Below, one piece after another: positions 23,365-28,124 of a stretch of DNA of 47,575 nucleotides. A model generated the notes under the pieces. That model was not told the origin of the DNA. It made no database searches and was given only the letters and a program-made list of their open reading frames with translations. Source of the stretch: Patescibacteria group bacterium (GTDB lineage Bacteria > Patescibacteriota > Patescibacteriia > UBA1558 > UBA10009). The position numbers were made by a program, and so were the translations under genes. The first letter of the stretch is position 1. Each line of letters starts with the position of its first letter. The stretch spans positions 1-47,575 of the forward strand of contig JAHITV010000026.1 in NCBI GenBank assembly GCA_018817315.1, written 5' to 3'.

Positions 23365-24615
23365 ATGCAACTTCTAAGTTCCATAAAAATCGCTTATAAG
23401 GCTTTAACCACTCATAAACTAAGGAGTTTTTTGACTATCTTAGGAATTGTGATAGGCATCACTTCAGTGATTTTGGTTTTCTCTGCAGGTGAGGCCATGA
23501 AAGGTTTAGTTTTAACTCAAATTGAAAGTTGGGGTTCGGATACTATTGAGGTAGAAGTAAAAATGCCAAACACTTCTCAGGCTTCTATGGAAAATGCTAC
23601 TAATTTTATGATGGGTGTAAGTATTACCACTTTAAAAGAGTCAGACGCTCAAGCAGTTAAAGATCATCCTAATATTTCTGATGCTTATTCAGCAATTATC
23701 GGTCAATCCATGGTTACTTATGCTGATGAATCAAAGATGATGCAGCTGTGGGGAGTTTCTGCTTCCTTTATAGATATGGATTCTTCTGAAGTGGGAGAAG
23801 GCAGATTTTTTACTAATGATGAAGACAAAAGTTTAGCTAAAGTCGCGGTTATTGGTAGCGGAGTCAAAGAGAAATTTTTTGGCGATCAAGAAGTAGTAGG
23901 TAAATTTATTAAAATTGGTAAAAACAATTTTAAAGTCATTGGAGTAATAAAAGAACGGGGAGAGATTATGTATATGAATATGGATGATTTTATTTATATA
24001 CCTCTTAAGCCATTGCAAAAGTTAGTGATGGGCGTTGATCATGTCATGTTTATTCTAGCTAAGCTTAAGGATATGGATTTAGCCGAAGCTACAGCTGAAG
24101 ATTTAACCTTAATGATGCGCGACAGGCATAATATAACTGATCCTAATAAAGATGATTTTGCTGTGATCACTATGGCCGAAGCTATGGAGATTTGGGGCAG
24201 TATTATGGGCGGTATCACTCTGTTATTAATGGCTATAGTAGCGGTTTCTTTAATTGTGGGGGGAGTGGGCATTATGAATATTATGTTTGTTTCTGTAACA
24301 GAAAGAACTAGTGAAATTGGTTTGCGCAAAGCTCTTGGTGCCAGCCAAAGTAAAATTCTTTCACAATTTTTATGGGAAGCAGTAGCCCTCACTTTTATAG
24401 GAGGGGTAATAGGAATAATTTTTGGCTTATTAATTTCATTTTTAACTTCCCTGGGCGCAAAAAGCCAGGGCTTTGACTGGGCTTTTGTGATTAATCCTCT
24501 TTCTTTAGTGATAGCAGTAGGAGCTTCAGTGGTTATTGGTTTAATTTTTGGTTTATTACCAGCCAGAAGAGCTGCTAAGATGGATCCTATTGAAGCTTTA
24601 CAATATGAATATTAG
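23365..24615 (+). CDS. MacB-type ABC permease, second copy
   Basis: This 416-residue paralogue of the preceding permease has the same layout: helix one with FLTILGIVIGITSVILVFSAGEA, an extracytoplasmic core rich in Met (for example NATNFMMGVS and SKMMQLWG), and FtsX helices with VGGVGIMNIMFVSVTERTSEIG, ending PARRAAKMDPIEALQYEY. Its core differs clearly from the first copy, so the two are not a recent duplication. It closes the operon; a new promoter begins four bases after the stop. Confidence 0.9.
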   Translation: MQLLSSIKIAYKALTTHKLRSFLTILGIVIGITSVILVFSAGEAMKGLVLTQIESWGSDTIEVEVKMPNTSQASMENATNFMMGVSITTLKESDAQAVKDHPNISDAYSAIIGQSMVTYADESKMMQLWGVSASFIDMDSSEVGEGRFFTNDEDKSLAKVAVIGSGVKEKFFGDQEVVGKFIKIGKNNFKVIGVIKERGEIMYMNMDDFIYIPLKPLQKLVMGVDHVMFILAKLKDMDLAEATAEDLTLMMRDRHNITDPNKDDFAVITMAEAMEIWGSIMGGITLLLMAIVAVSLIVGGVGIMNIMFVSVTERTSEIGLRKALGASQSKILSQFLWEAVALTFIGGVIGIIFGLLISFLTSLGAKSQGFDWAFVINPLSLVIAVGASVVIGLIFGLLPARRAAKMDPIEALQYEY

Positions 24616-24618
24616 TAA

Positions 24619-24646
24619 TTGACAGTTGATTTATTTTTGGTAAGAT
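24619..24646 (+). promoter_or_regulatory. Promoter of the Cys-rich/alpha-CTD-like gene
   Basis: TTGACA (24619-24624) is followed after 16 bases by TAAGAT (24641-24646). The leader would be about 35-40 bases and carries the SD TAGGAG six bases before ATG 24690. Confidence 0.6.
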
Positions 24647-24689
24647 AGAGGCATAATTGCACTAAAACAACGAAAAATAGGAGTCGGCT

Positions 24690-25676
24690 ATGGCAGTAGT
24701 CATCTGTGATCTCCCAGTGCTTTGGCGATCAGTGGCTACAAGTCTTATCCTACAAGGACAAGATAATAGCCAACCTGGAAATTCTTGTTGTCCATCGCAA
24801 AGCACATCTTTACAGCAGGCAGCTGAATATTTTGTAAGCGGAAAATGTGTTGGCTGTTCTGAAAACAGGTATTGCTCAATTTTGAAGCGGCTGTTTGCAA
24901 AATTGCAGGAAGCTTTGCCTTTAGCAGAATACTGTGAACTGCGGAATAGATTTTTTTCCTGCAACGCCTGTTTAAGGAGAATTCTGATTGGTGCCTGTAA
25001 AAGATCAGTAAGATGTAATTGTTCTTTTTTTAAGGGTGTGGAAAGAGTTGCTGTCTTTGGTGAGGGGAGTGTTTTTACCTACAAAAATTGTTCTTCTTTT
25101 TTCACAGTTGTTGGAAATCATTCTTCTTCCTTTTCTAGATCTGTTGGAGGTAATGGTCAGATATTTAAAATTCAACAGAAGACTTTAGTTGTTTGGTCAC
25201 AGGAGGGAAGGAGAACTGATATGGCAGGGTGGAAAAGAGAACAAATAATAAGAAGGTTAGGAGAGGAACTGTTTCTTCGTAGACAAAATGCTAAGAGAGA
25301 AAGAAAGGAAGAGGAGTGGTTTGAAGGAAGAGCAACATTTGAAATGAGGGAAGTGTGGCCAGAAGAAACTTCTCCGATTGTTAAGAAAAAACCGCAAAGA
25401 GGTGGACCTAGAAAAGGAGCTGGCAGACCAAAGGGATTAAGGAATAAAGAATCAAGAAAAAGAGAAATACCAATAGGTCGCGTTTCTAGAAGGGTTTTAC
25501 TTAGCGATTTAGCTTCTTCAGAAGTTTGTAGAAATTTGAGGAGGATAGGGATCAATAATGTGGATCAACTCTCTCGATTCGGTATTGCCAATTTAAGGGG
25601 AGTGCTTGGCGACAAGATAGCGATTCGAGTTTGGAATGAATTATCAAAAAGGAGCCAAACCTTTATCGGCTCATGA
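24690..25676 (+). CDS. Unrecognised protein: Cys-rich N-terminus, basic linker, RpoA-CTD-like end
   Basis: The frame is open for 328 residues. Residues 1-134 hold 13 Cys, including CVGC (53-56), CNAC (91-94) and CNC (109-111), which suggests bound metal. Residues 170-262 are strongly charged and basic, with a GGPRKGAGRPKG motif (238-249) that recalls AT-hooks and small terminase subunits. Residues about 271-320 resemble the RNA polymerase alpha C-terminal helix-hairpin-helix (NLRRIGINNVDQL then LGDKIAIRVWNEL). A second strong SD and in-frame ATG at 25221 would make a 151-residue short form without the Cys part. It has its own promoter and terminator. I infer a DNA-binding regulator; function is unknown. 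The Cys-rich half could also be a separate unit read through. Confidence 0.65.
   Translation: MAVVICDLPVLWRSVATSLILQGQDNSQPGNSCCPSQSTSLQQAAEYFVSGKCVGCSENRYCSILKRLFAKLQEALPLAEYCELRNRFFSCNACLRRILIGACKRSVRCNCSFFKGVERVAVFGEGSVFTYKNCSSFFTVVGNHSSSFSRSVGGNGQIFKIQQKTLVVWSQEGRRTDMAGWKREQIIRRLGEELFLRRQNAKRERKEEEWFEGRATFEMREVWPEETSPIVKKKPQRGGPRKGAGRPKGLRNKESRKREIPIGRVSRRVLLSDLASSEVCRNLRRIGINNVDQLSRFGIANLRGVLGDKIAIRVWNELSKRSQTFIGS
25201..25214 (+). promoter_or_regulatory. Internal SD for a second start at ATG 25221
   Basis: AGGAGGGAAGGAGA ends six bases before the in-frame ATG 25221 (codon 178). It is a better SD than most true starts in the window, so a short isoform is likely. Confidence 0.6.
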
Positions 25677-25704
25677 CCAAAGTGGTTCATGAGCTCTTTT
25701 TATT
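25669..25704 (+). terminator. Terminator overlapping the 25676 stop codon
   Basis: GCTCATGA (25669-25676) pairs with TCATGAGC (25687-25694) and a T-rich tail follows. The TGA stop codon is part of the stem. Confidence 0.8.
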
Positions 25705-25763: not shown

Positions 25764-25791
25764 TTGACACTATTTTTTAGCGTGTTATACT
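25764..25791 (+). promoter_or_regulatory. Promoter of the heat-shock operon
   Basis: TTGACA (25764-25769) and TATACT (25786-25791) are 16 bases apart and end four bases before the CIRCE operator. HrcA bound at CIRCE would block transcription from this sigma-70-type promoter. Confidence 0.8.
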
Positions 25792-25795
25792 GGAA

Positions 25796-25822
25796 TTAGC
25801 ACTCTAACCTTGGGAGTGCTAA
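25796..25822 (+). promoter_or_regulatory. CIRCE operator (HrcA binding site)
   Basis: TTAGCACTC, nine spacer bases and GAGTGCTAA make a perfect CIRCE inverted repeat. It covers the predicted transcription start of the hrcA operon, so the operon is self-repressed and opens on heat shock. Confidence 0.97.
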
Positions 25823-27785: not shown

Positions 27786-28124
27786 ATGTATTTTATGAAT
27801 CAAAAAGGACAATTTAGTTTGCGTTTGATCCAAAAATGCCCGGTATGTAATCAGGATTTTAGTACTGGTCGTATTCAGATATTGGATGAGGAAAATAACA
27901 GTTTCTTGGCTTACTTAACTTGTGCTAATTGTCGTTCCAGTATTTTAGTAAGAGTGATGACTTTACCGCACGGTTTAGTCGGCAATGCCATTTTAACTGA
28001 TCTTAATAGTGAAGAAGTAATATCATTCAGTGAAGAAGAGCAGATTAACAGTAATGATGTTTTGTTTATTTATGACTATCTGGCTAAAAAAGGAGATTTT
28101 ATTGAAAGATTAAAACAATTATAA
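27786..28124 (+). CDS. Small zinc-ribbon protein of unknown function
   Basis: The 112-residue protein has two CxxC pairs, CPVC (about 18-21) and CANC (about 47-50), with beta strands between, the layout of a zinc ribbon. The C-terminal half is acidic (EEVISFSEEEQINSND) and ends in a helix. A GAGGTGAT stretch six bases ahead supports ATG 27786 over the ATG three codons later. It sits between hsp20 and dnaK, with dnaK starting 27 bases after the stop. A role in proteostasis is suggested only by this context. Confidence 0.65.
   Translation: MYFMNQKGQFSLRLIQKCPVCNQDFSTGRIQILDEENNSFLAYLTCANCRSSILVRVMTLPHGLVGNAILTDLNSEEVISFSEEEQINSNDVLFIYDYLAKKGDFIERLKQL

Follow-up and report, generated by a model that had tools for sequence, protein, structure and literature searches.

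A Cysteine-Rich Protein with a Helix-Hairpin-Helix Domain Encoded between macB-Type and hrcA Genes in a Patescibacteria Genome

In a Patescibacteria group bacterium with a 1.05 Mb genome (G000), an open frame flanked by the gene of a MacB-type ABC permease (23365-24615) and by hrcA (25852) raises two questions: whether it is a gene in its own right, and what kind of protein it specifies. The stretch of DNA analyzed here, referred to as the window, comprises 47,575 nucleotides, and the features of the locus are collected in Table 1. The first-pass annotation, made from the letters alone, had described one frame joining a 13-Cys N-terminal region, a basic segment and a C-terminus resembling a helix-hairpin-helix (HhH), and in this the frame was read correctly. 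It had also proposed that the C-terminus resembles the C-terminal domain of the RNA polymerase alpha subunit (alpha-CTD), and that an internal ATG might yield a second, shorter product.

Table 1. Features of the locus, in window coordinates.
Feature	Position	Strand	Basis or remark
Promoter-like TTGACA-16-TAAGAT	24619..24646	+	10/12 matches; just past the macB-type gene
Shine-Dalgarno AGGAG	24679..24683	+	6 nt ahead of ATG 24690
ORF of 328 aa	24690..25676	+	Open frame; full-length homologue in G046
Cys-rich core, residues 34-109	24789..25016	+	8 Cys common to the ORF and the G046 homologue
Linker, residues 136-264	25095..25481	+	Unconserved in the homologue; predicted long helix, residues 179-215
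AAGGAG + ATG 25221, proposed second start	25208..25223	+	Unconserved, probably chance
Basic AT-hook-like GGPRKGAGRPKG, residues 238-249	25401..25436	+	Present in this copy only
HhH domain, residues 268-323	25491..25658	+	AlphaFold, Foldseek; PF21999/PF14520 on the homologue's domain
Inverted repeat GCTCATGA...TCATGAGC, then T-rich run	25669..25702	+	Likely terminator, overlaps the stop codon; read by eye
hrcA promoter TTGACA-16-TATACT + CIRCE (25796-25822)	25764..25822	+	Part of hrcA, not of the ORF

The gene, its relatives and its surroundings

The length of the frame is well beyond what chance provides, as the longest open frame was shorter in all 5000 shuffles (0 reached its length), and a search for a frameshift or an antisense gene found no second frame open across the region. 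Relatives are rare. A six-frame search with the full protein covered 381 genomes of the class, within more than 600 genomes searched overall, and yielded one clear full-length homologue, in genome G046, with none further among the more than 600. This match on contig G046:C7 (E=3.9e-11 on residues 26-132) corresponds to a 248-aa gene (L106:1507-2253), which is 28% identical in an alignment spanning the whole protein (pairwise E=7e-16 over 290 columns). The homologue is absent from G087, a genome of the same genus as G046. A second relative is probable, though not certain, from its sequence: in G004, a member of the same family of organisms as the window genome, a 183-aa ORF (L006:818-1369) lies directly before CIRCE and hrcA, which is the same place as the window gene, and it has a promoter-like site, a strong Shine-Dalgarno sequence and a terminator-like repeat (read by eye). 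Its product has four Cys at the start and an HhH segment that resembles the G046 domain clearly (Z=13.7, and E=0.01 in another search) and the window domain weakly (Z=2.7, a score reached by 39 of 2000 shuffles). The same G004 protein seems to end in a second HhH-like segment, whose likeness to the first is insignificant (Z=0.3).

Elsewhere, nothing in Pfam, NCBIfam or PADLOC matches the window protein, searches of viral contigs and of phage and plasmid sequences gave no relatives, and PDB sequence searches gave no relevant match. Single-sequence searches were likewise negative, whether the short form was run against 91 relatives and the genome contigs or the long form against the genome contigs. 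Weak profile matches at L107, L122, L130 and L151 (E 0.001-0.1 per genome) were rejected as chance, since they contain stops or cross other genes, and a literature search found no paper on a family combining a Cys-rich part with HhH. Taken together, 24690-25676 is best read as one real gene, belonging to a new, small and sporadically distributed family within this Patescibacteria-like class of small-genome bacteria.

The signals around the gene point the same way. With a promoter-like site and AGGAG before it and an inverted repeat after it, the gene looks like a single-gene unit. Promoter-like sites in the region are no more numerous than expected by chance, and one lies upstream of all three family members (TTGACA/TTGACT in G004 and G046, read by eye). 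A clear Shine-Dalgarno sequence likewise precedes all three (AAGGAG in G046, GGAGGAG in G004), a signal of at least 4 being found in just 8 of the 38 window genes. The inverted repeat at the end of the gene is missing from the plus-strand results of the inverted-repeat scan, because its loop exceeds the length which that scan allows.

CIRCE stands ahead of hrcA in most relatives. In relatives that still have macB and hrcA in this order, mostly some 40-150 bases separate the two and this gene is missing; the gap in G002 reaches about 400 bases, with no comparable ORF inside. The gene is thus an addition at the macB-hrcA position, and a search for mobile-element borders around it revealed no notable flanking repeats. 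Two further observations concern heat-shock genes. A 112-aa CPxC zinc-ribbon-like protein (27786-28124) is encoded between hsp20 and dnaK, matches nothing in Pfam or NCBIfam above cut-off, and is also found beside hsp20 in those relatives of the order with loci extending to this point. Additionally, G004 joins GrpE and Hsp20 in one 290-aa frame (L144:8705-9577) with both Pfam domains, unlike the window and the other relatives, in which these are two genes.

The cysteine-rich part, the linker and the internal ATG

Residues 1-177 hold 13 Cys; dinucleotide shuffles average 8.1, and a count of 13 is reached in 88 of 2000. The homologue search that had been suggested for this part found 8 of them kept in G046 (C34, C53, C62, C82, C91, C94, C103 and C109), and the outcome that the annotation had named as refuting its proposal, upstream sequence without conservation, accordingly did not arise. 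Similarity of the core to G046 is strong (Z=19.1 against shuffles) and persists when Cys are masked (Z=11.9). Furthermore, the spacing C82-x8-C91-x2-C94 recurs in the G004 protein, for which the chance by shuffling is about 0.9%. AlphaFold models the N-terminal part alone poorly (pLDDT 46). The domain is probably metal-binding; if the G004 protein does belong to the family, the four Cys that it shares might make up a single metal site, and the four confined to the longer proteins a second.

The codon usage of this part is weak. Its score is -0.03 for residues 1-177, when most window genes fall between +0.08 and +0.27; it rises to +0.21 for 25221-25470, and the final part of the ORF is poor again. 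Such a profile might be read to mean that the N-terminal part is non-coding, either a leader or decayed DNA, and that only the short protein is real. However, the 177 codons stay open, Rfam gives no match in the N part and its predicted RNA folding is nothing unusual (z=-1.25), and it is because of its protein homology with G046, rather than its codon usage, that the N part can be regarded as real coding sequence. The homologue refutes the non-coding reading in substance, leaving it a probability close to nil.

Between the two conserved ends, the linker shows no similarity to G046 (Z=0.6 against shuffles), and the basic segment within it has a weak match to phrog_15261 (E=0.003). It is within this linker that the internal start was proposed. 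The strong Shine-Dalgarno sequence claimed for ATG 25221 is indeed there, as AAGGAG sits 7 nt upstream, but an equally long one precedes 6 of the 254 internal in-frame ATGs of the window genes (about 2%). Synthesis of a long form that binds metal alongside a short one that binds DNA would also agree with the rise in codon score from roughly this ATG onward. Against this, the surrounding linker is unconserved and the G046 homologue has no start codon preceded by a Shine-Dalgarno sequence at the matching place, and we regard the production of both forms as highly unlikely. Under the best reading, the gene product is the long form begun at ATG 24690, and there is no need for a short form from 25221, which is unsupported.

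The helix-hairpin-helix domain and RNA polymerase alpha

The structure prediction bore out the HhH fold of the C-terminus. From the single sequence, AlphaFold gives the last ~55 residues as a confident HhH with pLDDT about 86 over most of them, the predicted helices occupying residues 94-97, 100-108, 114-120, 122-129 and 131-146 in the numbering of the short form. Foldseek returns mostly HhH proteins as the best structures, namely the RpoA CTD, Y-family polymerases and Rad51-type N-termini, none of them with E below 0.1. Similarity to the G046 domain is evident (Z=8.3 against shuffles), and that homologue's domain matches PF21999 (IMS_HHH_1) with E=3e-5 and PF14520 (HHH_5) with E=0.003. Thus the HhH fold in the broad sense is indicated both by AlphaFold with Foldseek and by two Pfam families on the homologue. 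With PF21999, G046 scores 24.8 bits and the window protein 13.5, both below the cut-off of 27.

The more specific likeness to the alpha-CTD divides according to the type of evidence. In shape, the likeness is suggestive: alpha-CTDs are the first-ranked PDB matches (E=0.11 and 0.27; Y-family polymerases follow from 0.40), with a Foldseek probability of 0.99 and, for an isolated CTD, a TM-score by target of 0.70 and an rmsd of 1.8 A, while in the viral library proteins named RNA polymerase alpha C-terminal rank second and third. In sequence, it is not borne out. The profile search that had been proposed gave no match, as PF03118 at E<=10 recognizes neither the isolated domain nor anything else in the genome. 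DinB-like proteins of the class (L140 and L141, named by eye) score Z 6.7-8.1 against the G000 and G046 domains, whereas alpha-CTDs score -0.6 to 3.3, with the G004 copy mixed. When the HhH domains of the family were compared with the alpha-CTD profile against profile, P was 1.9e-6 with the uncertain second G004 HhH included and 2e-5 with three domains. All of these comparisons with alpha-CTDs, for which the set consisted of two sequences from the loci plus those of E. coli and B. subtilis, are leads. Among the DNA-contact residues of the alpha-CTD (Arg265, Asn268, Gly296, Lys298 and Ser299), an alignment read by hand places Glu, Val and Leu at position 265 in the window, G046 and G004 proteins, respectively; the family has Arg/Lys at position 268 and keeps Gly296, and Lys298 is kept in the window protein only. 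The safe statement is that this is an HhH domain with an alpha-CTD-like shape and a sequence nearer the polymerase thumb type.

That Parcubacteria have lost the alpha-CTD has been described before (PMC8321222). In agreement, none of the 33 distinct RpoA proteins that we read in the class (loci L098, L033-L062 and L099-L105) has room for the domain, each of them stopping right after the N-terminal domain (NTD) or finishing with a charged tail; that of the window genome is a separate gene (L098, at G000:C27), likewise without CTD. PF03118 is found above cut-off in just 3 of 53 genomes. The two such proteins that were read, L063:260-1663 and L065:1462-2049, are not RpoA but join an apparent sigma region 4-like helix-turn-helix (HTH, by eye) to a true PF03118 domain, and the RpoA proteins of these genomes lack the CTD. 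Separately, the RpoA tail ends in the AT-hook-like RGRP(K/R)K in 9 of the 33, including the window genome and three of its four family relatives; by analogy, such a tail could bind the AT-rich minor groove, as the alpha-CTD does.

Given an RNA polymerase that has lost its alpha-CTD, one could envision the window protein as a stand-alone factor, applying an alpha-CTD-like module in trans to the AT-rich DNA upstream of promoters, with the metal domain as its gate. The top structural matches (alpha-CTDs in PDB, two of the top three in the viral library by name), the profile-profile likeness, the RpoA proteins of the class and the lack of a PF03118 match in the window genome are all consistent with such a role. 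However, no structural match falls below E=0.1, PF03118 is unmatched, the Arg265 equivalent is replaced, and the sequence lies closer to Y-family HhH domains (Z about 7, compared with 0-3.3). Furthermore, nearly all relatives without an alpha-CTD are also without a Cys-rich HhH protein, and the family therefore cannot be a general alpha-CTD substitute. We consider this role very unlikely, and mimicry of RNA polymerase alpha is weakly supported. A metal-gated, free-standing alpha-CTD-like protein acting in trans would be a type of transcription factor not described before, and the probability that one exists here is smaller still.

Possible function and comparison with known systems

Judged by its sequence features, the best reading of the protein is a metal-binding DNA-binding protein, expressed from its own promoter and perhaps a regulator; as a whole, we consider this reading somewhat more probable than not. 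Several steps would follow. Firstly, the Cys residues would hold one or two metal ions, as zinc or as an iron-sulfur cluster. Secondly, the HhH domain and the basic linker would bind duplex DNA via the backbone and the minor groove. Lastly, the protein would serve as a small regulator that binds DNA, or would be associated with the chromosome; any part in gene regulation is conjectural, as are the metal or redox sensing and the promoter contact suggested in the first-pass annotation.

The principal competing explanation is a DNA repair or nucleoid accessory protein, with an HhH domain of the Y-family thumb type, no sequence preference and a Cys domain that is simply structural zinc. HhH domains generally bind DNA non-specifically, which agrees with such a role, as does the closest sequence kin of the domain, namely the DinB-like HhH segments of the class and PF21999. 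On the other hand, the protein has no polymerase, nuclease or ligase domain, and its neighbors are transporter and heat-shock genes here and genes of other functions in G046, with no repair genes among them. We judge this explanation unlikely, yet worthy of serious consideration, and continue to prefer the metal-binding DNA-binding protein described above.

The family is absent from Pfam, NCBIfam and PADLOC, and pairs a Cys-rich domain that has no known relative with an HhH module. It occurs in bacteria whose transcription regulation has hardly been studied and whose RpoA lacks the alpha-CTD. If promoter binding were true, the family would offer a lead to transcription regulation in such cells; otherwise, it would be one more sporadic DNA-binding protein.

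When compared with named systems, the C-terminal domain finds its closest sequence match in the thumb HhH of Y-family polymerases (PF21999, DinB-like), but the window protein lacks the catalytic part, remains below the Pfam cut-off and joins its HhH to a Cys-rich domain. With the alpha-CTD (PF03118), it shares the predicted helix order and its best structural matches in the PDB and among named viral proteins, whereas it gives no profile match, lacks Arg265, is not attached to an alpha-NTD and has a loop ahead of the second hairpin that is two residues shorter. The WhiB-like (Wbl) iron-sulfur regulators of Actinobacteria may offer an analogy in the manner of working only, having a small Cys-rich metal domain together with a basic AT-hook-like segment. 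Wbl proteins are distinguished by C-x2-C-x5-C spacing and have no HhH, while the window protein has C-x8-C-x2-C-x8-C and no WhiB match in Pfam or NCBIfam. Finally, L063 and L065 resemble the window protein in providing a free-standing alpha-CTD or alpha-CTD-like domain where RpoA lacks a CTD; they differ in that their PF03118 matches are true ones and the HTH-like part, recognized by eye, takes the place of the Cys domain.
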